Notes: generated by a model from the sequence alone, not told the origin. Shown: positions 563 to 11,554, numbered from the stretch's first letter. The stretch: 64,000 nucleotides of DNA from Sandaracinus amylolyticus (GCF_021631985.1 NZ_CP070225.1:4898001-4962000); one strand, 5' to 3'. Program-made: numbers and translations.

Positions 563-577
563 TCCTCTCCAGATCTC

Positions 578-640
578 GAGGAGAGCAGGAGCCGGAGCTC
601 TGAGGAGAGCAGGAGCCGGAGCTTCTGAGGAGAGCAGGAG
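578..640 (+). repeat. Direct repeats, GAGGAGAGCAGGAG family (three copies)
   Basis: Two near-identical 22-bp units start at 578 and 602 (GAGGAGAGCAGGAG followed by CCGGAGCT). A third, shorter unit of 14 bp starts at 627. The unit spacing is about 24-25 bp. The same core recurs inverted at 871-883 and 966-978, and again between purD and purH near 49813-49916, so it is dispersed rather than local. Confidence 0.8.
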
Positions 641-721
641 GGTCAGGAAGACCACGGCACTGAGCTCGCTGGTGATCCCGACGCGTCCCGCAGTGCGAGA
701 GAGAGAGAAGAGAGAGGATCT

Positions 722-797
722 ACCGCAGAGGACACGGAGGGCCGCAGAGTTGGCTTCAGAGAGTGTTTCTCTGCGGCCCTCCGTGGCCCTCTGCGGT
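722..797. repeat. Long imperfect palindrome (28-29 bp arms, 19-nt loop)
   Basis: The left arm at 722-749 (begins ACCGCAGAGGACACGG) and the right arm at 769-797 (ends GGCCCTCTGCGGT) are reverse complements except for one mismatch and a one-base bulge. The 19-nt loop is AT-richer than its surroundings. A hairpin this long could terminate transcription from the receiver gene upstream, or it could be a REP-like mobile palindrome. No T-tract follows on either strand. Confidence 0.75.
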
Positions 798-976
798 GAA
801 TTCTCCGAGGCCGAGCGCAGCAGATGCAACGCGTCGAGGAGGAGACCCATCGACGTGGTCTTCCTTCTCCTCCTGCTCTCCTCAGAAACTCTCTTCGCTC
901 GAGGTCGAGCGCAGCGGGAACAGCGTGTCGACGAGACGATCCGTCGACGTGGTGTTCCCTCTGCTTCCTGCTCTCC

Positions 977-1306
977 TCAGACGATCGTGTCGCGGCGTGG
1001 CTCGTCCTGCTCGCGCACGACCGCGCCCGACTCGCGCAGCGCGCGGCGGAGATCCTCGACCGGCGTGCCCGGCGTCATCGCCTTGATCGCGCGCAGGCCC
1101 TTGTTCGGCTCGCAGATGAGCACGGGGCCTTCCTCGGCGACCCACACCGCGACCAGGCCGGCGCCGAACGTCGGCGGGCGCTCGGGCGCGCGCGGCTCGA
1201 GCACGTGCAGCGCAGGGGCGTCGTCGTCGCCGGGCGCCCATCGCGCGCCCTTCCCGACCAGCTTCGCCCACAGCATCCCGAAGCTCACGTCCTGCGTCGT
1301 CACCAT
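977..1306 (-). CDS. Hypothetical protein, 109 aa
   Basis: A short soluble protein of unknown function. It has typical host codon bias and no recognised motif, signal peptide or membrane helix. The middle (VAVWVAEEGPVLICEPNKGLRAIKAM) looks like alternating beta strands followed by a helix, and the last 35 residues are charged. The ATG at 1306 is supported by a TACGCT box at 1319-1314 (reading leftward), seven bases upstream, which fits the leaderless-promoter pattern of this window. It is divergent from the small basic protein at 1378. Confidence 0.6.
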   Translation of the reverse strand: MVTTQDVSFGMLWAKLVGKGARWAPGDDDAPALHVLEPRAPERPPTFGAGLVAVWVAEEGPVLICEPNKGLRAIKAMTPGTPVEDLRRALRESGAVVREQDEPRRDTIV

Positions 1307-1951: not shown

Positions 1952-4900
1952 ATGACGAACATCCTGCCGGGCGAGGTCACGCCGACGCTCTTCGTCGGCC
2001 TCGGCGGCTCGGGGGGCCGCGCCATCGGACGCATCGCGCGGCACCTTCGCGCGCGGGCCGATTTCGGCGTGCGCTACGAGGGCCTCGTCCGCTTCCTCGC
2101 GATCGACACCAACGAGGCGGACCTCGCGCGGCTGCGCCAGGGCCCAGGCGCGATCCACAGCACGGTCGCGATCAGCGACTTCGACAAGGTCGAGTACTCG
2201 TCGCTGCGCCGCGGGGATCGTTTCGCCGACGCCGATCCGTACTTCACGCAGTGGGTGCACCCCTGGTACCGCTTCCGCGAGGAGAGCGGCGCAGGCGCGG
2301 GGCAGATCCGTGTGGAGAGCCGGCTCTCGTTCAACCGCGCGGTCGAGGTGGGCTCGCTCTCGGCGAGACTGAGCGAGATCCTCGATGCGCTGCGGCACCA
2401 CGCGCAGGGCATGCGCCGTCACGACGCGCCGGTGCAGGTGTTCGTCTACTTCTCGGTCGCGGGCGGCACCGGATCGGGCGCGTTCCTGCCCTTCGGCTAT
2501 CTCGTGCGCGACGCGCTCGGCGACAAGCGCTCGCGCGTGTTCGGCTTCGCGATCCTGCCCGAGGCGTTCGAGGTGGTCGCGGGGCGCAACCGCGACGGCG
2601 TCTACGCGAACGGCTACGCGGCGCTCAAGGAGCTCGAGCACCTGATGCGGCTCGACACCAACACGAGCGGCTCGCCCGACGCGATCGCGTTCCACTACGA
2701 CCCGCGCAACAAGAGCCGGAAGACCGTCGCGCGACGTCCCTACGATCTCGTGTACCTCGTCGATCGCCCCGCGAGCTTCAGCCTCGACGAGGTGGGCGAG
2801 GCGCTCGCGGACGCGAGCTACCTGCAGGTGTTCTCGCCGATCCTCGGGGATCAGCAGGCCGACTACGACAACTACACGAAGGAGTCGCGGGCGCTCTTCC
2901 CGGCGGAGCTCGGCAGCGACGGATACAGCGCGTTCTACGGCACGCTGGGCTCGGCGCTGGTGATCCTGCCGCGCAAGGACCTGCTCGAGTACTGCGCGCG
3001 ACGGTGGAGCGCGGCCGCGGTGCGGCGTTACCTGCTGCTCGACGATCCCGCGCTGGTCAGCGAGTCGCAGCGCGAGCGGTTCAAGCGGTTCGCGCTCGAT
3101 CCCGCGGAGCTCGACACGCTCTCGCCCGACGAGCGCGCGCGACGTGTCGATCAGAGCTTCGTGTCGCGCATCGATCTGCTTGCGGAGGAGGATCGCGAGG
3201 GCGGGATCTGGAAGCGCATCGTCGCGCTGAAGGAGACCGCGGGCGCGAAGATCGCGGCGACGCTCCACGGGATCGAGACCGAGCTGCGCGGAAAGACCAC
3301 GCAGGTCCGGGAGATCAGCGCGGATCGCATCCTCGACGGATCGTGGACGCCCGCGAACACGATCGGCGCGCTGGGGCGCGAGGTCGAGAAGGCGCGCGCC
3401 GACGTGCAGGCGCGACTGGGCACGGTGCTCGCGCAGATCGACGGCGGGAGCTTCTGGCCGGAGCTGCTCGCGAAGGCGGGCCCCGACGGAGCGCCCGAGC
3501 TCTCGCCCTACGAGCAGCGCTACGTGCTCACGATGCTGCGCGAGCCCACGGGCCTGCTCGGCAGCGCGGCGCTCGACGAGGTGACGCGACAGATCGCGGG
3601 GCTCACCAAGGAGTGCGAGCTCGGTCGCGAGGGTCGCTTCACGAGCGAGATGGACGCGCACGCGTCGACGCTGAAGCGCACGCACGGCGGGTTCGACGCG
3701 GTGGTGCTGCGCAAGGACAAGGACTTCGAGGCGGCGCGCGATCGCGCGGTCGCGACGTTCAACGAGCAGGTGGAGCGACAGCGCGCGCTCTTGCTCAAGA
3801 GCGCGCTGCACGAGCTGCGGGTCGCGCTGGGGCGCGCGGCGGACGCGCTGCGCGCGAGCTTCCGGAACATCGAGGCGTCGGCGTCGCGCTTGTCGGTCGA
3901 GCTCGACGAGAAGGCGCGCCGCTTCGAGCTCGACGGTGGGCACGCGGGCGCGGGCGAGGTGAACGACTTCGCGCTCGACGTGGAGGCGCTGCAGCACCCG
4001 AGCGGCAAGCAGCGCTTCTGGAGCTGGTACTACCTGGACCAGGTCGCACGTGGCTCCCTGGGCGCCGCAGGCCCCGAGACCGGAGACAGCAAGGAGATCG
4101 TCGCGGCCGTGCAGGACGCGATGCGTCCGCGCTTCGACGAGCGGGGACGTCCGGTGTCGCGCACCGCGCGCGAGATGGTGAGCGACATCGAGCGCAAGCT
4201 GGTCGAGGTCGCGGAGGGCGTGCTCGCGAAGGTGATCCTCGGCGATCCGCGGAGCGACGATCCCGCGGAGCGCGCCGGGCTCACGCTCGATCAGGCGATC
4301 GCGCTCGAGGCGAAGTACTACGAGCTGCACACGCAGAACGAGGTGCTGGCCGAGCGCGAGCGGAAGAAGACGACGGCCGAGGCCGCGCTGCGCGCGATGT
4401 CGCCGCTCTCGCCGGCGTCGCTGTGGGGCGAGGAGAACGTGCGGCAGTACGCGCTGCGCAAGCTGCGCGCGACGATCGGCAAGGCGCAGCCGCTCACGCG
4501 TCTCTCGCCCGAGGCGCGCAGCCTGATGAAGCACACCGACATGCTGCTCGTCGGCGTGCACACGTCGCTCGCGGGGAGCGCGCTCGGTCGCTTGCTCGCG
4601 GGCGCGACCGAGGGCCTGAGCGCGCAGACGATCGACGACTGGCCGGACGCCGAGCGCCTCGTGTTCTATCGCTCGATCCTCGGCGTGCCGCTCTACTGCT
4701 TCCCGCACGTGAACGAGGAGATGAAGGCCTGCTACCAGCGCTACCAGGCGCAGCGCGAGAAGGCGTGGCCGCTCCACATCGACGCGAACTGGGAGGCGCT
4801 GCCCGATCTCGATCCCGAGGAGCGGCGCGCGGCGATCGAGTCGCGTCGCAAGCAGCTGAAGGGCGCGCTCGGCGCGCTCGCGATCGCGGTGACGCGGGGT

Positions 4901-5209
4901 GCGGTGACGAGCGGTGAGAGCGGGCTCGAGCTCGTGATCGGCTCGTCGCGGCTGCCACTCGGTCGCGGGCCCATCGAGGCCGCGGGCGCGCTCGCGGCGC
5001 TCGAGCAGAGCAAGCCCTCGATCTTCCAGTCGGTCGTGCTGCCGCTGCGCAGCGCGTTCGAGAGTGGCACCGCGAAGGGCGAGGTCGCGGGCGCACAGAA
5101 GACGTGGAGCGAGCGCGCGATGCAGCTCGAGCTGCTGGCCGGTCTCGACTCGGCGCAGAAGCGCGAGTACGACGAGCTGCGCGAGGTCGCGGCGATCCTC
5201 GGCGGCTGA
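1952..5209 (+). CDS. Tubulin-like GTPase (Tubulin_2 type)
   Basis: A 1085-residue protein. It opens TLFVGLGGSGGRAIGRIARHL, the glycine-rich loop expected at the start of tubulin/FtsZ-like nucleotide folds. At residues about 169-176 it carries VAGGTGSG, the tubulin signature that binds the phosphates (GGGTGSG in FtsZ). The remaining 650 residues are charged and helical with coiled-coil-like stretches and no membrane helix. Length and architecture fit the Tubulin_2 group of large bacterial tubulin-like proteins, which have no settled function. The ATG at 1952 has GGAGG at 1934-1938; an in-frame start at 1832 would add Arg-rich sequence. It is the first gene of a three-gene set, with 16 bp to the next. 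Polymer formation is untested. Confidence 0.85.
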   Translation: MTNILPGEVTPTLFVGLGGSGGRAIGRIARHLRARADFGVRYEGLVRFLAIDTNEADLARLRQGPGAIHSTVAISDFDKVEYSSLRRGDRFADADPYFTQWVHPWYRFREESGAGAGQIRVESRLSFNRAVEVGSLSARLSEILDALRHHAQGMRRHDAPVQVFVYFSVAGGTGSGAFLPFGYLVRDALGDKRSRVFGFAILPEAFEVVAGRNRDGVYANGYAALKELEHLMRLDTNTSGSPDAIAFHYDPRNKSRKTVARRPYDLVYLVDRPASFSLDEVGEALADASYLQVFSPILGDQQADYDNYTKESRALFPAELGSDGYSAFYGTLGSALVILPRKDLLEYCARRWSAAAVRRYLLLDDPALVSESQRERFKRFALDPAELDTLSPDERARRVDQSFVSRIDLLAEEDREGGIWKRIVALKETAGAKIAATLHGIETELRGKTTQVREISADRILDGSWTPANTIGALGREVEKARADVQARLGTVLAQIDGGSFWPELLAKAGPDGAPELSPYEQRYVLTMLREPTGLLGSAALDEVTRQIAGLTKECELGREGRFTSEMDAHASTLKRTHGGFDAVVLRKDKDFEAARDRAVATFNEQVERQRALLLKSALHELRVALGRAADALRASFRNIEASASRLSVELDEKARRFELDGGHAGAGEVNDFALDVEALQHPSGKQRFWSWYYLDQVARGSLGAAGPETGDSKEIVAAVQDAMRPRFDERGRPVSRTAREMVSDIERKLVEVAEGVLAKVILGDPRSDDPAERAGLTLDQAIALEAKYYELHTQNEVLAERERKKTTAEAALRAMSPLSPASLWGEENVRQYALRKLRATIGKAQPLTRLSPEARSLMKHTDMLLVGVHTSLAGSALGRLLAGATEGLSAQTIDDWPDAERLVFYRSILGVPLYCFPHVNEEMKACYQRYQAQREKAWPLHIDANWEALPDLDPEERRAAIESRRKQLKGALGALAIAVTRGAVTSGESGLELVIGSSRLPLGRGPIEAAGALAALEQSKPSIFQSVVLPLRSAFESGTAKGEVAGAQKTWSERAMQLELLAGLDSAQKREYDELREVAAILGG

Positions 5210-5225
5210 GCTTGATCGCATCGCG

Positions 5226-7745
5226 ATGACCACCGCGGCGATCGTCTGCGGGCTCGGTGCGTTCGGCGCGAGCGTCGCGCGTCGGCTCGAGGAAGAGCTG
5301 TCGCGCGAGGGCGCGCCCTTCGCGTTCGTCGCGCTCGATCCGTGCCCCTCGCCGAGCGCGATCGCGTCGGCGGTGATCGAGCGGGCGCGCGTGCTGCTCG
5401 CGCACGAGCGCATGGTGCACGCGCGCGATGCCGCGGGGGAGGACGGGCTCACCGAGCTGCTCGTGATCCCGATCGCGCACCTCGGCGAGCGCGGACCACG
5501 CGGTGCGATCGAGGCCGCGCTCACGGCGATCGAGGAGCGCGTGATCGGCGAGCTCGGTCCGATCTTCGAGCCGTTCCGTACGGGGAGCGAGCGCAACGCG
5601 ATCGTCGCGCCGATGCTCGCGATGCCGCATCCCCACGGACACGCGGAGGGCGAGGCGATCATCGCGTCGGTGCGCGCGCTCGTGAGCGCGGTGCGCGCAC
5701 GTCCCGCGACGCGGCGCTGCACGCCGCAGGTCTGGCTCGTCGAGGACGTCGCGGAGTTCTCGATCCTCTCGGAGGGCGAGCTCGAGCAGAACGTACGCAA
5801 CTTCGTCACGCTGCTGCTGCGCGCGCGACCGGCGCTCGATCGCGTGCAGACGGTGCTGCACGGCACCGCGCCCGACGCACCGCTCGCGACGTTCGCGTGT
5901 GCCGTCGCGGAGCTCCCGCGCGAGCGCATCCGGCGCTGGGCGACGAGCCAGGTCGCGCTCGAGCTGCTCGATGCGGTGCTCGACGCGAAGCTCGAGGGCG
6001 CGACGTTGTCGGAGGTCGACGCGCTCGAGCAGGTGGAGCTCGACGCGCTCGATCCCACCGCCGACGCCGCGCACGTCGTGCGCGACGTGCTCGAGCGCTA
6101 CGTGCCGCCGATCGAGAACGACGCGCCGCCGCGCTGGCACGAGAGCGCAGAGGAGATCCGCGCGCGCTACGGGCCCGATCACGGAGATCCTTCGCTCGAC
6201 GATCCGCAGCCGCCGCCCCAGCAGCCGGTGGGTTTCGCGCTCGAGCGCATGCGGCAGATCGAGGACGCCTGGCGGCTCCTGCAGCGGCGGCGCTTCGACG
6301 ATCTCGTGGCGCGCGAGCGCGCGGACATGGAAGCGGCGCGCGAGTCGTTGCTCACGCGGGTGAAGGCGCGCGTGGATCGCGAGCTCTGGGGAACGCCGTC
6401 GCCCGACGCGTTCCGGCGCACGACCGAGCTCGTCGACAAGCTGCGCCGCGGCGTCGCGATGCGGCTCGAGGACGCGATCACCGAGCGCGACGCGATCGAG
6501 CCGACGCCTTCGCCGAGCTTCGACGATCTGCGCGCGAGGCATGCCGAGCTGCTCGATGCGGCGCGCCGCAGGCCCGATCTCGGGCGCATGGTGCTCTGGG
6601 GCCTGCTCGCGACGATGGCGACGATCGTGCTCGTGCCGTCGATCCTGGTGGAGCTCGCGGGCGCGATCGATGCCCAGCCGAGCGACTGGTACGAGCCGTG
6701 GCTGCGGGCGCGCGCGATCTGGACCGCGGGCACCTTCGGGCTGCTCGCGATCGGAGCGCACCTCGCGTGGCACGTGTGGAGCGCACACGCGGCGACGGTC
6801 GAGGCGCACCGCGAGATGTGGGCCGCGATCCGTCGCACCGTGATGGGCGAGCAGCGATCGGTCGCGACGTACTTCACGACGCGCTTGCGCTTGTCGCGCG
6901 CGACGGCACGGGTCCAGGCGCTGCTCGCGCTGCGCGCGGTGCTCGATCGCGACGCGGAGGCGCTGCTCCTCGCGGAGCGCGCGGCGCAGCGTGCGCGCGC
7001 GGAGCTGCTCGCAGAGCAGCGTGCGCTGGGCGTGGTGCGCGAGGGCGCGCGCGTCGATCTCTCGGAGCTGCTCGGTGGGCGCGGCGAGACGCTGGTCGAA
7101 GGGCTCGCGGGCGCGGCGGCAGCGCGCGCGCTGATGCGTCAGCTCCCCGCCGATGCGCGGCCGACGCGCGAGCGCGATCTGCTGCGCGCCCTCGCCGATC
7201 GCGAGGGCTGGTCGCGGCGTTGGCGCGACGAGGTGCCGTTCTCGTCGCTCGTGTCGCTGCGCGCGGGCGCGGCGCCGCACGCCGAGCCGGTCGCGGCGTG
7301 GGATCCGTTCGCGGAGAGCGAGGACGCGGAGGCCGCGAGCGCGCAGATCGCGTCGTTCTTGCGGAGGCAAGCGCGCTCGCTGAGGGTCGCGCTCGACTTC
7401 ACGGGCCGCGAGGTCGGCGGCGACGCGCACGTCGTGTACGAGGGCCTCGGCGTGGTCCCGCCCGCGGCCGAGCCCGAGGTCGCGCGAAGGCTGGAGAAGG
7501 AGAGCGCATCGGGCGCACCGATCCGCTGCGCGCGCGGCATCGAAGAAGATCGCGCGTACTGGCTCGTGGTGGTGACCGACATCGAGCTCGAGCGCGTCGC
7601 ATCGCTGCGCACCACGACCGCGACACGTCCCACCGCCGCCGAAGCCCCGCGCTTCGAGATCGAAGACGAAGCCGCCGCCCGCGTCGCGACGCTCGCCCGC
7701 AAGCCGCCCTCGCCCCCTCACTCCGACCCGGAGGAGGGCGCGTGA
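5226..7745 (+). CDS. Large membrane protein of the tubulin-like operon
   Basis: An 839-residue protein I cannot assign to a named family. Its start, AIVCGLGAFGASVARRLEEEL, resembles the glycine loop of the preceding tubulin-like protein, but there is no GGTGSG signature, so it may be a degenerate partner domain. A long charged helical region follows, with a Pro-rich linker near residue 330 (PQPPPQQP). Two membrane helices lie at about residues 453-480 (MVLWGLLATMATIVLVPSIL) and 495-520, then a coiled-coil-like cytoplasmic tail. The ATG at 5226 gives 16 bp from the previous stop; no strong Shine-Dalgarno is seen, so translational coupling is likely. Its stop overlaps the next start (GTGA). It is a plausible membrane anchor for the tubulin-like protein. 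Confidence 0.75.
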   Translation: MTTAAIVCGLGAFGASVARRLEEELSREGAPFAFVALDPCPSPSAIASAVIERARVLLAHERMVHARDAAGEDGLTELLVIPIAHLGERGPRGAIEAALTAIEERVIGELGPIFEPFRTGSERNAIVAPMLAMPHPHGHAEGEAIIASVRALVSAVRARPATRRCTPQVWLVEDVAEFSILSEGELEQNVRNFVTLLLRARPALDRVQTVLHGTAPDAPLATFACAVAELPRERIRRWATSQVALELLDAVLDAKLEGATLSEVDALEQVELDALDPTADAAHVVRDVLERYVPPIENDAPPRWHESAEEIRARYGPDHGDPSLDDPQPPPQQPVGFALERMRQIEDAWRLLQRRRFDDLVARERADMEAARESLLTRVKARVDRELWGTPSPDAFRRTTELVDKLRRGVAMRLEDAITERDAIEPTPSPSFDDLRARHAELLDAARRRPDLGRMVLWGLLATMATIVLVPSILVELAGAIDAQPSDWYEPWLRARAIWTAGTFGLLAIGAHLAWHVWSAHAATVEAHREMWAAIRRTVMGEQRSVATYFTTRLRLSRATARVQALLALRAVLDRDAEALLLAERAAQRARAELLAEQRALGVVREGARVDLSELLGGRGETLVEGLAGAAAARALMRQLPADARPTRERDLLRALADREGWSRRWRDEVPFSSLVSLRAGAAPHAEPVAAWDPFAESEDAEAASAQIASFLRRQARSLRVALDFTGREVGGDAHVVYEGLGVVPPAAEPEVARRLEKESASGAPIRCARGIEEDRAYWLVVVTDIELERVASLRTTTATRPTAAEAPRFEIEDEAAARVATLARKPPSPPHSDPEEGA

Positions 7746-10700
7746 ACGCGTTCGAGCGTCTCGCGTGCGAGCTCGCGCGTCTGTCCGCGCTGATCCCTGG
7801 GCTCGGGATCACCGTCGTCGCGTTCGTGCCCTCGCTGCTCGTGATCGCGACGTCGTACCTGCTCGGTCGCGCGGCGCGCGCGCTGCCCGGCGGTCGTGGT
7901 CGAGCGAGCCACACGCCGACCTGGGTCGCGGCCTCGATCGTCGCGGTCGCGCTCTACGGCCTCGCGCGCATCGCCGATCCCTTCCTGCGTGATCGACTGC
8001 ATCGCCCCGACGACGTCGATCCCGCGCTGTGGGAGCGCGTCTCGTACTTCGAGTGGCGTCTCCTCGGTGCGCCGTGGGGTCGCCCGCTCGTGCCGCTCGA
8101 TGCGCACCCCGACATCGCGATCGCGCTGCACGCGATCGTGTGGCTGCCGATCATCGTGCTCGTCGCGGCGCTGCTCGAGCGCTTCGTCGTGTCCGCGACG
8201 CCGGGCGGGCTCACGTGGAGCACGAAGCAGGAGGACCTGCCCTTCTTCCATCGCTGGGTCGGCGCGAGCACCGCGCGCCGCGCCGACGATCGCTTCCGCC
8301 GCTGGGCGCGCCCGCTGTGGATCGCGATCTTCGTCGCGCACGCGATCGCGGGTTGGCTCTTCTACGTGCGCTTCGTCGCGAGCGAGCCCCCCGCGATGAT
8401 GATGTGCCGCGAAGGCGAGCAGGGCGCGCCGGTGCGGCCCGCGGCGTACGCGGACGACGACGATCCGATCGAGCAGGCGCGCGACGATGCGCGGCCCGCG
8501 CCCGGCGCGTGGGTGCTCGCGCTCTACCTGCTCACCGTGCTCGGCGTGCACCTCGCGACGCAGGCGCGTCCGCCGGCCGAGCAGGACGAGAAGAAGGCCG
8601 AGGAGGACACGAAGGCACCTCCGCCCGAGCCCGCGATCGAGCGCCTCCGCGCCGCGCTCGCCGACGCACCGGGCGCCCCGACCATCGCACCTTCGACGCG
8701 CACCCCCGCGCGCACCGCCGAGACCGCCGCGCTCCCCGATCGCACCGCTGCGCTCGCGGCCGAAGCGTTCCGCCGTCTCACCGGCGCCGAGACGCTCTAC
8801 ACACACCAGCGCGACGTGCTCGAGCACCTCTCCTCGATGTGGCGCACCACGTCTCCCACCGCGCGCGGCGCGGCGCCCGAGCTGCGCGAGGAAGCGATGG
8901 GCGCGCCGTTCCGCGGCGCCGAGGGCGCGCTCGAGCACCCGCTCGTGCTTCTGCCCGAAGGCAGCGGTCGCACCGCGCTCTGCGCGCTCGCGGCGCTGCA
9001 GGTCTTCCTCGATCGCGGCGCGACCACGCTGGTCGTCACCCGCGACGCACCCTCGGCGCGCGCGTTCGCCGAGCGCGTGCGCGATGCGGTGCAGCGCACG
9101 GCCGCGCGATGGAACGCCGCGGTCGCCGTCGCAGGTGAAGATCTCGCCGCCGCGCTGCTCGCCGAGCGCACCCCCGCGATCGTCGTCGCGCATCTCGAGG
9201 CGCTCGAGTCGGACGTGCTCTCGGATCCGCGCACCGAGCCGATCCTCGAGCGCCTCGGGCTCTGGATCGTGCTCGACGTCGAGGGCTTCACCGGCGTGCG
9301 CGAGATGCATCTGCACATGCTCGCGCGCCGTACCTGGGCGCTCCTCGATGCGGTGCACGACGCGCCCTACCCCGCGCTCCTGCTCGCCACCGCCGGCCCG
9401 AGCGCGAGCGGCATCGCGGGCTGGGCGCGCCACCTGCTCGCCGCGCCGCTGCGGGTCTTCGAGCGCGACGGAGCGCCGCGCCCCGCGCACGCGACGATCA
9501 CCCGCCGCGATCTGCGTCGTGACGACGGGCGCGAGGTCACGATCGCCGAGCTCGCCGAGGCGTGCGCGCGCGCCGGGCTGCGCTGGCACCTGCGCCTCGC
9601 GGGCGACGCGTGGCGCGGCATCGCGCGAAGCACGATCGATCTCGCGCCCGTCGCGGGGCACGTCGACGATCCGCTCGACGCCGAGGTCGTGATGATCGAA
9701 GGGCGCTGGCCCGACGTGCGGCGGGAGGCCGAGCGCCTCGCACACGCCGGGCAGCGCGCCGCGCCCGAGGGCGAGACCCTCGTGATCCTCGCACCGCCAC
9801 GGGGCGACGAGCTCGCGCTGCACGACGAGGCGGAGGACGCGCCCTTCCGCGCGCTCACGCTCGCGCTCCCTCGCGCGGTGCCGCTCTCCGAGCCCGAGGT
9901 GGTGCGCCAGCGTCACTTCGATCGCGCGCTCGGTCGCGAGCAGGACGTCGACGCGCTGCGCACGCGCTTCGGCGCGCCCTTCGTCGACGAGACGCTGCGA
10001 CGCCTCGAGGCGAACGGACGCGTCGCGCGCCGCGCCGCGCTCGAGTTCGACGCGCGCATCGACGACGCGCGTGCCCGCGCGAAGGTGCGCAGCACGAGCG
10101 AGGCCGCGATCGGCGAGCCGATCTGCGATGCGTGCGTGGGCGAGTCGACGTCGCGGGTGCGGCTCGTCGACGAAGGCACGCGCGACGTGCTGCGCGAGCT
10201 CGATCTCGCGACCGCGAGCGCGCTGCATCCGCCGGGCAGCCTCGTGCTCCACGCGCGGGGTCGCTACCTCGTGCGCGAGGGCGCGAGCGAGCCCGGGCTC
10301 CTCCTCGCGGCGCACGGGCAGCCTCCGGGCCGCACCACACCCGACCGTCGCGTGACCATCGAGCCCCGGGGGAAGCTCGAGCTCTCGGAGCGCTCGCTCG
10401 GCGGCGCGCCGATCCCGATCGCGCTCGCGCGCGCCGAGGTCACCGAGACGTTCCATGGCATCCGCCGCTACGCGCCGGGCCCGCGCCTCGTCGAGCGACG
10501 CACCTACGCGCATCCGCTCGCGAGCGTGTACTCGACCGAGGCGTGCCTCGTCGTGATCGAGCCCGCGCTCCCGCGCGCGGCGGAGATCGCGCTCGCCACC
10601 GCGGTCCGCGCGATGCTGCCGTGCCTGCTGCGCGCGTCGGAGGATCTGATCGACGTCGAGATCGTGCGCATCGAAGAGCGCGTCTGCCTCGCGCTCTTCG

Positions 10701-11554
10701 ATCGCACGCCGGGCGCGAGCGGGCTCGCGCGGCACCTGCACCACGAGGGCGTCGGCGATCTGCTGCGGCTCGCGCGGCTCGCGCTCGAGCGCCTGGTCGG
10801 TGCGGAGACCGCGCCGCTGCGCGCGCTCTACGACACGCGGGAGGGCGGCGATCGCGAGCCCTGGGACGCGCGCGCCGCGCTGGTGTGGCTCGATCGCGTG
10901 CTCGACGCGGCGCCCGAGGACGACGCGCCTGCGCGCGAGCGTGCCGCGCGCGTCGAGCACGTGCCGGGAGAAGGCGCGCCCGGCGATCTCGGTCGCGTGT
11001 GGATCGCGCTCGAGGGTCGCACCGAAGATCTGGTGTGGACCCGGCACGCGTGGATCAGCGAGGTCGCGATCGGCCAGGCGCCCGCGGGCCCGGTGCACCT
11101 CGACGTCGCGTTCGAGCGCGGCGCGATCGCGCGTGCCCTCGAGGAGGCCGCGAGCGCGAGCGACGATCTCGGCGCGTGGGGCGATCTCGTGGCGCGCGCC
11201 GAGGCCGATCTCGCGCCGCTCGCATCGCGCCTGATCGATCTCGCGGGCCCCGCGTACCCCGAGCTCGTGCTCGGGCTCGTCGCCGCGATCCCCACCCGCG
11301 CACGACCGCTCGCGCCCGCCGAGCGCGCGCCCCTCGTCGCGCTGGTGCGACGACGCGCCGACGCGCCCGCGAAAGCGCTGCTCGCGCTCACCCTGCTGCG
11401 CGCGCACGGCCCCGCGCAGATCCTCGAGGGGCCGCGTGGTCCGTGGGTGCGCGCGACGATCGGAGAGCGCGATCGTGTCGTCGATCTCACCCGCGATCCG
11501 CCGCGCGTGGTGTCGTCTTCCGAGCACGCTGCAGCGCGTGTGCACCTCGGCTGA
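7742..11554 (+). CDS. Membrane-anchored, degenerate Hrq1/MrfA-like (DUF1998) helicase
   Basis: A 1270-residue protein starting at a GTG that overlaps the previous stop by 4 bp. About five hydrophobic segments lie in the first 275 residues (near 15-40, 60-77, 122-146, 193-213, 257-273), then a charged linker. The cytoplasmic part follows the order of Hrq1/MrfA DEAD-like helicases: YTHQRDVLEHL (Q-like), EGSGRT at 406-411 in place of GSGK(S/T), and LDVEGFTGV with D512 in place of DE(V/L)HxYxG. Later come LRELDLATASALHPPGSLVLHARGRYLV and LALFDRTPGASGLAR, which match conserved strings of the DUF1998/MZB region. The usual arginine-finger motif VI is not evident and the DUF1998 cysteines are mostly missing, so ATPase activity is doubtful. 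Confidence 0.7.
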   Translation: MNAFERLACELARLSALIPGLGITVVAFVPSLLVIATSYLLGRAARALPGGRGRASHTPTWVAASIVAVALYGLARIADPFLRDRLHRPDDVDPALWERVSYFEWRLLGAPWGRPLVPLDAHPDIAIALHAIVWLPIIVLVAALLERFVVSATPGGLTWSTKQEDLPFFHRWVGASTARRADDRFRRWARPLWIAIFVAHAIAGWLFYVRFVASEPPAMMMCREGEQGAPVRPAAYADDDDPIEQARDDARPAPGAWVLALYLLTVLGVHLATQARPPAEQDEKKAEEDTKAPPPEPAIERLRAALADAPGAPTIAPSTRTPARTAETAALPDRTAALAAEAFRRLTGAETLYTHQRDVLEHLSSMWRTTSPTARGAAPELREEAMGAPFRGAEGALEHPLVLLPEGSGRTALCALAALQVFLDRGATTLVVTRDAPSARAFAERVRDAVQRTAARWNAAVAVAGEDLAAALLAERTPAIVVAHLEALESDVLSDPRTEPILERLGLWIVLDVEGFTGVREMHLHMLARRTWALLDAVHDAPYPALLLATAGPSASGIAGWARHLLAAPLRVFERDGAPRPAHATITRRDLRRDDGREVTIAELAEACARAGLRWHLRLAGDAWRGIARSTIDLAPVAGHVDDPLDAEVVMIEGRWPDVRREAERLAHAGQRAAPEGETLVILAPPRGDELALHDEAEDAPFRALTLALPRAVPLSEPEVVRQRHFDRALGREQDVDALRTRFGAPFVDETLRRLEANGRVARRAALEFDARIDDARARAKVRSTSEAAIGEPICDACVGESTSRVRLVDEGTRDVLRELDLATASALHPPGSLVLHARGRYLVREGASEPGLLLAAHGQPPGRTTPDRRVTIEPRGKLELSERSLGGAPIPIALARAEVTETFHGIRRYAPGPRLVERRTYAHPLASVYSTEACLVVIEPALPRAAEIALATAVRAMLPCLLRASEDLIDVEIVRIEERVCLALFDRTPGASGLARHLHHEGVGDLLRLARLALERLVGAETAPLRALYDTREGGDREPWDARAALVWLDRVLDAAPEDDAPARERAARVEHVPGEGAPGDLGRVWIALEGRTEDLVWTRHAWISEVAIGQAPAGPVHLDVAFERGAIARALEEAASASDDLGAWGDLVARAEADLAPLASRLIDLAGPAYPELVLGLVAAIPTRARPLAPAERAPLVALVRRRADAPAKALLALTLLRAHGPAQILEGPRGPWVRATIGERDRVVDLTRDPPRVVSSSEHAAARVHLG

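Follow-up and report, generated by a model that had tools for sequence, protein, structure and literature searches.

The window analysed here is a 64,000-nucleotide stretch of the genome of Sandaracinus amylolyticus, an 11 Mb assembly in two contigs whose relatives in the public set are the Sandaracinaceae and related Myxococcota. Between positions 1952 and 11554 it carries three genes, all on the + strand. Gene 1 (1952..5209) opens with an ATG at 1952, closes with a stop codon at 5207-5209 and encodes a Tubulin_2/FtsZl1 GTPase of 1085 aa. Gene 2 (5226..7745, ATG at 5226) encodes a membrane-anchored protein of 839 aa that we assign, from an AF2 model, a fold match and a profile match, to the tubulin fold as a pseudo-GTPase. 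Gene 3 (7742..11554, GTG at 7742) encodes a polytopic membrane protein of 1270 aa in which profiles identify a diverged helicase-like region of the YprA/MrfA (DUF1998) type. The co-directional arrangement described in the first-pass annotation was recovered when the reading frames were rechecked, with a 16-bp gap between genes 1 and 2 and a 4-bp overlap between genes 2 and 3. Compared with the nearest relative (genome G012), identities are 96%, 94% and 93% for genes 1, 2 and 3, with dN/dS values of 0.10, 0.13 and 0.17, respectively, indicating that all three are coding sequences held under purifying selection.

A profile search with gene 1 matched Pfam PF13809 (Tubulin_2) over residues 13-358 (E=4.6e-54), scoring 184.5 bits where the curated cut-off is 27, and judged by its sequence gene 1 is a member of the FtsZl1 family of Makarova & Koonin 2010 (PMC2875224). 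The VAGGTGSG signature picked out at first inspection lies at residues 169-176, and the T4 GTP-binding loop (AGGTGSG, 2459..2479, + strand) is kept, apart from minor variants, by all aligned homologues that extend across it. In line with the earlier call of a tubulin-like GTPase, an AF2 model built from 40 homologues (mean pLDDT 86.8) matched tubulins with a best Z of 23.1 (rmsd 3.6, 323 residues aligned), and plain Foldseek matched this model to CetZ2 (E=2.5e-5). The model follows the FtsZl1 plan of an N-terminal FtsZ-like domain, a long coiled coil and a mostly helical C-terminal part. The tubulin alignment spans residues 9-957, with about 323-350 residues aligned, and together with the AF2 secondary structure it places a helical or coiled-coil insertion of about 490 residues (roughly residues 371-858; approximately 3062..4525, + strand) between two tubulin-fold parts. 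Because the match extends over residues 9-957, the full tubulin fold appears to be present in the modelled protein, split by this insertion. Furthermore, a canonical ftsZ (E=2.9e-51) lies elsewhere in the same genome, making gene 1 an extra tubulin that is unlikely to act as a division protein. In tubulins, the GTP of one subunit is hydrolysed once the T7 loop of the next subunit docks, and we infer that the gene 1 protein hydrolyses as well as binds GTP.

Gene 2 had been described as a two-helix membrane protein, and the helices hold up. A transmembrane hairpin lies within a helical insertion at approximately 6591..6779 (+ strand), seen in hydropathy and in AF2 helices 452-480 and 497-540; a strict hydropathy scan gave one segment here, and two emerge from a slightly altered scan and from the AF2 helices. 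What that description had missed is the tubulin fold. The gene 2 sequence gave no significant match in Pfam, NCBIfam, PADLOC or the PDB, and its identity came only from fold comparison and from broad profile comparison. The AF2 model (mean pLDDT 82.3), compared using VIA-align, had CetZ as its best match (Z=16.9, rmsd 4.9, 265 aligned), and its best 50 matches were all tubulin, FtsZ, CetZ, TubZ or BtubA/B. Plain Foldseek returned no match at E<=0.001, some tubulin chains having high probabilities with poor E-values, and a Foldseek search of viral predicted structures gave no match. The fold assignment therefore draws on VIA-align together with the independent profile match to gene 1, for which 32 gene 2 homologues were compared with 40 gene 1 homologues using hhalign (probability 94%, E=9.2e-8, 186 columns of the GTPase domain). 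This alignment brings into register the LPR segment that ends the GTPase part in both window proteins; narrow alignments gave no link between the two genes, whereas broad ones did. The T1 loop, GLGAFG, which is the glycine loop noted at first inspection, is kept in most gene 2 homologues. At the position corresponding to T4 of gene 1 in the hhalign comparison, gene 2 reads AHLGERGPR (5475..5501, + strand), and the [GA]GTG[ST] motif is found in 0 of 38 gene 2 homologues; we therefore class gene 2 as a tubulin-fold homologue and not as a GTPase. We conclude that it encodes a membrane-anchored pseudo-GTPase of tubulin fold, related to gene 1, and it probably originated by duplication of gene 1.

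Gene 3 had been read as five hydrophobic segments followed by strings resembling Hrq1/MrfA, and both observations were borne out. Hydropathy places about five N-terminal membrane segments at 7772..8560 (+ strand), and N-terminal membrane segments were found in all gene 3 homologues examined. The single sequence matched the Pfam families DEAD and MZB weakly; among the homologues, DEAD was detected in 23 of 28 (best 2.8e-10) and MZB in 16 of 28. A broad profile (A4) matched YprA in the PDB (6znp, E=1.2e-30) in two segments, RecA1 and the CON-DUF1998 region, and matched the intact MrfA of the same genome in one long alignment (E=8.8e-19), which supports, at the level of sequence profiles, a kinship with Hrq1/MrfA (YprA/DUF1998) proteins. 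The MZB/DUF1998-like region, located by PF09369 and the MrfA alignment, lies at 10592..10792 (+ strand) and includes PGASG; the PF09369 match has E=0.046 in the window protein and 4.8e-10 in the best homologue.

The same alignments weaken the earlier suggestion that gene 3 supplies a helicase module acting on nucleic acids. In the homologue alignment its Walker A is a degenerate EGSGRT (8957..8974, + strand), with lysine changed to arginine, and the Walker B region, LWIVLDVEGF (9260..9289, + strand), has lost its acid pair. The alignment to MrfA contains no counterpart of the RecA2 motifs V/VI (TNALELGID and QRFGRAGR), and no cysteine of the four-cysteine zinc site follows PGASG in gene 3, where the genome's own MrfA has GCECGGGCPAC. 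These combined losses make a scaffold the more probable role for gene 3, and as far as its motifs can tell, helicase activity has likely been lost in the window lineage. Across relatives Walker A varies: several other families have GKT or GKS, and none is recognisable at three loci (L119, L125 and L126); where GKT or GKS is found, ATP binding may persist. One homologue keeps DELH. Such retention would suit an alternative in which the membrane-bound gene 3 protein retains ATPase or helicase activity and tolerates the arginine in Walker A, but we consider this improbable given that the window lineage is without the Walker A lysine, the Walker B acid pair, the motif VI arginines and the zinc cysteines, and that the P-loop is unrecognisable in some relatives. 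Less probable again, by our estimate, is a DNA-positioning or segregation device, in which gene 3 would link a TubZ-like filament at the membrane to DNA: although TubZ is among the fold matches, and the family from which gene 3 descends is one of DNA helicases, its nucleic-acid motor motifs are decayed, the locus is chromosomal and no TubR-like DNA-binding gene was noticed beside the trio.

We then asked how widely the three genes occur together. Among the 379 genomes sampled from the phylum, searches detected gene 2 in 29 and Tubulin_2 in 81. At loci chosen by gene 2 (n=18), gene 1 adjoined it in every case and gene 3 was present at 14; three of the other four loci stop at a contig edge, and the fourth, in Plesiocystis (L082), is without gene 3 beside gene 2, which implies that gene 3 is not strictly required. 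At loci chosen by Tubulin_2 alone (n=20), gene 2 was present in nine and gene 3 in ten, and neither was found by sequence in eight. A survey of distant genomes, as proposed in the first-pass annotation, recovered the same gene order in divergent Myxococcota, kept across many genomes of different classes with identities down to about 20-30%, and the trio recurs far above chance; in two relatives genes 2 and 3 stand several kb apart. Of the two outcomes named beforehand as refuting the first proposal, rarity of the trio elsewhere and failure of gene 3 to match DUF1998 helicases, neither was observed, gene 3 having been compared by sequence profile. The three proteins also give closely matching distance matrices (Mantel r 0.96-0.98 over 25 loci, a value reached in 0 of 2000 permutations), which shows joint inheritance and not contact, as vertical descent alone can yield such an r. 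The widened spacing and the Plesiocystis locus are what might be expected if the genes were chance neighbours with no joint function, yet the synteny of the trio strongly disfavours this explanation, and with overlapping frames and matched rates added to it we consider the likelihood negligible.

Many relatives carry a gene for a secreted vWA protein directly upstream of gene 1. Its counterpart in the host genome stops 1.1 kb short of the window, about 3 kb upstream of the operon, and has a signal-peptide-like start and a DDSGS metal site. Ser/Thr kinase genes recur near trio loci, and in Myxococcota most of the neighbours that carry an annotation have household or kinase functions; no partner P-loop GTPase or OmpA-type gene was recognised in the subset of neighbours scanned. 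Beyond the Myxococcota, an Azospirillum plasmid encodes FtsZl1, then a protein of 710 aa that has a hydrophobic hairpin, then a membrane protein of 1118 aa. The last of these matched gene 3 moderately (hmmsearch E=0.006 at Z=1e6; hhalign probability 89%, with no shuffle close), and the 710-aa protein gave no significant match to gene 2. Plasmids of Thermus and Meiothermus carry a vWA-FtsZl1-hypothetical arrangement adjoining brxL, in a BREX-like setting, and the Meiothermus vWA-FtsZl1 genes also lie near DUF1156 and Swt1-HEPN genes; the Thermus protein downstream of FtsZl1 gave no match to gene 2. One further family (f46, loci L115-L117) has the layout of the trio without a significant sequence match. 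We regard the Azospirillum, Thermales and f46 loci as leads only and not as proof of the same trio.

These plasmid settings bear on the main rival to a role in envelope remodelling, namely that the genes encode a defence or conflict system. In it, the tubulins would assemble into a polymer for signalling or trapping, the vWA protein would resemble a co-chaperone and the YprA-like protein would sense foreign nucleic acid. The brxL, DUF1156 and Swt1-HEPN neighbours are in keeping with such a system, as is the assignment of other tubulin-domain and vWA genes to conflict systems by Kaur et al. 2020 (PMC7159879). Against it, PADLOC gave no match for genes 1-3 at E<=1, the trio is without a nuclease or methyltransferase, and no match was found for gene 2 on plasmids or for gene 1 in the viral contigs scanned. 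The household and kinase neighbours in Myxococcota, the evolution of genes 1-3 in step and the decay of the gene 3 helicase motifs also speak against defence, which on balance seems unlikely.

We favour instead, with a probability of roughly 55%, a reading in which the trio forms a membrane-tethered polymer of active tubulin and pseudo-tubulin on a pseudo-helicase scaffold and acts in envelope remodelling. We infer physical contact among the three proteins, and their biological role, as follows. The gene 1 protein would bind GTP and polymerise, and the gene 2 protein, presumably unable to bind GTP in the usual way, might cap or nucleate the polymer, or co-polymerise or alternate with gene 1. 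The gene 2 hairpin, sitting in the inner membrane, would tie the gene 1 filament to the membrane, and the RecA-like/DUF1998-like cytoplasmic region of gene 3, probably no longer a helicase in this lineage, may provide a docking scaffold for the complex. The secreted vWA protein encoded upstream would probably be their partner in the periplasm or at the surface. Such a machine would most likely serve envelope or membrane remodelling, or positioning linked to the envelope, rather than division or DNA segregation. Of the cytoskeletal or scaffold GTPase coupled to a nucleic-acid module that was first proposed for this locus, the membrane anchoring stands, through the hairpin and the membrane segments, and the nucleic-acid module is weakened by the lost motifs of gene 3. 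A more general version, which we put forward tentatively and hold to be somewhat less probable than the reading for this locus, is that an obligate pair of active and membrane-anchored pseudo-tubulin, a retired YprA-type helicase serving as dock and a vWA protein across the membrane make up a widespread membrane cytoskeleton that lies unrecognised at the heart of many FtsZl1 operons, including some outside Myxococcota.

The structural plan and the partners of FtsZl1/Tubulin_2 have been unsettled since 2010. Our data suggest that these proteins possess the whole tubulin fold, with a long helical stretch inserted into it, and that within one large clade FtsZl1 is accompanied by a pseudo-tubulin supplying the membrane anchor, a partner that makes FtsZl1 function directly testable. 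If true, the trio would add one of the few examples in which the fold of a DNA-repair helicase has been recruited to serve as a membrane scaffold.

Of the known systems, the closest are the FtsZl1 operons with vWA genes described by Makarova & Koonin 2010 (PMC2875224), for which a membrane-remodelling role was proposed. Our reading of the trio fits that proposal and supplies parts for it: gene 1 belongs to a family whose alignment there took in Plesiocystis pacifica, and vWA genes and kinases recur near those operons, as here. Whereas T6-H7 elements and the C-terminal tubulin domain were not placed in FtsZl1 in that work, and other neighbours were left as unannotated families, here both tubulin-fold parts are found in the predicted model around the helical insertion, and of the partners one is recognised as a pseudo-tubulin and the other as a membrane protein related to YprA. 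The conflict systems of Kaur et al. likewise combine tubulin-domain with vWA genes, and their firmicute versions have two tubulin genes; however, they centre on a GAP1-N2-type GTPase, none of which was recognised among the trio neighbours scanned, and the YprA-like membrane protein present here goes unmentioned in the excerpted text.

The YprA/MrfA helicases (6znp; DISARM, Druantia and relatives, PMC12458937) share homologous RecA1 and CON-DUF1998 regions with gene 3, which differs from them in having about five membrane helices in front, unrecognisable RecA2 motifs V/VI, no zinc cysteines and tubulin neighbours; the text of the preprint (PMC12458937) mentions neither tubulin nor a transmembrane form. 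The idea that the trio and DISARM have a common origin is not supported: none of the partner genes of DISARM accompanies the trio, and PADLOC gave no match. Finally, alpha/beta-tubulin and BtubA/B offer a precedent for two tubulin-fold proteins encoded or working together, as genes 1 and 2 may do, although in gene 2 the T4 motif is wholly absent, the protein is membrane-anchored and a heterodimer would be hypothetical. We found no pseudo-tubulin anchor or YprA-like membrane partner of FtsZl1 in the open-licence literature. FtsZl1-vWA operons as such were already known; the identity of the partners and the conserved trio that they form with FtsZl1 appear to be new.

Upstream of the trio, on the stretch of the same genome that reaches beyond the window start (L033), a gene for a secreted vWA-domain protein lies on the forward strand and ends at 8932 of that stretch, 1.1 kb before the window begins. 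The protein carries a signal peptide and a DDSGS metal site, and the position of its gene upstream of the trio is conserved among relatives. Between the first genes of the window (565-985), short repeated motifs around GAGGAGAGCAGGAG occur together with their reverse complement.

Variant loci were found within the Myxococcota. In family f29 (L067, L068, L073 and relatives), gene 2 is about 1400 aa long and has a long additional segment inserted shortly downstream of the T1 loop. Plesiocystis pacifica possesses both genes 1 and 2 (L082 / L023), with a different 511-aa frame, which overlaps gene 2, following next in the place of gene 3 (L023:15989-17524). In family f46 (L115-L117), the gene on the upstream side of FtsZl1 encodes a secreted protein in which DDSGSM resembles a metal site, and downstream come a protein of ~690 aa and a membrane protein of ~1150-1330 aa; this layout equals that of the trio, yet the sequence match to the trio is not significant.

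On an Azospirillum ramasamyi plasmid (L135:8686-17601), FtsZl1 is followed by a 710-aa protein containing a hydrophobic hairpin and by an 1118-aa membrane protein that matches gene 3 moderately. The context of FtsZl1 on Azospirillum sp. TSA2s plasmid p2 (L136) is different, and OmpA, DUF4384 and caspase-family genes surround it there. A Tubulin_2-like stretch is also encoded in a faecal record labelled Bacteriophage sp. (MT836542.1:7213-7974).

Finally, on plasmids of Thermus oshimai and Meiothermus taiwanensis (L134, L137), a vWA-FtsZl1-hypothetical block adjoins brxL, with DUF1156 and Swt1-HEPN genes also close by on the Meiothermus plasmid; the setting of the FtsZl1 gene at these two loci looks like a BREX-like defence locus.
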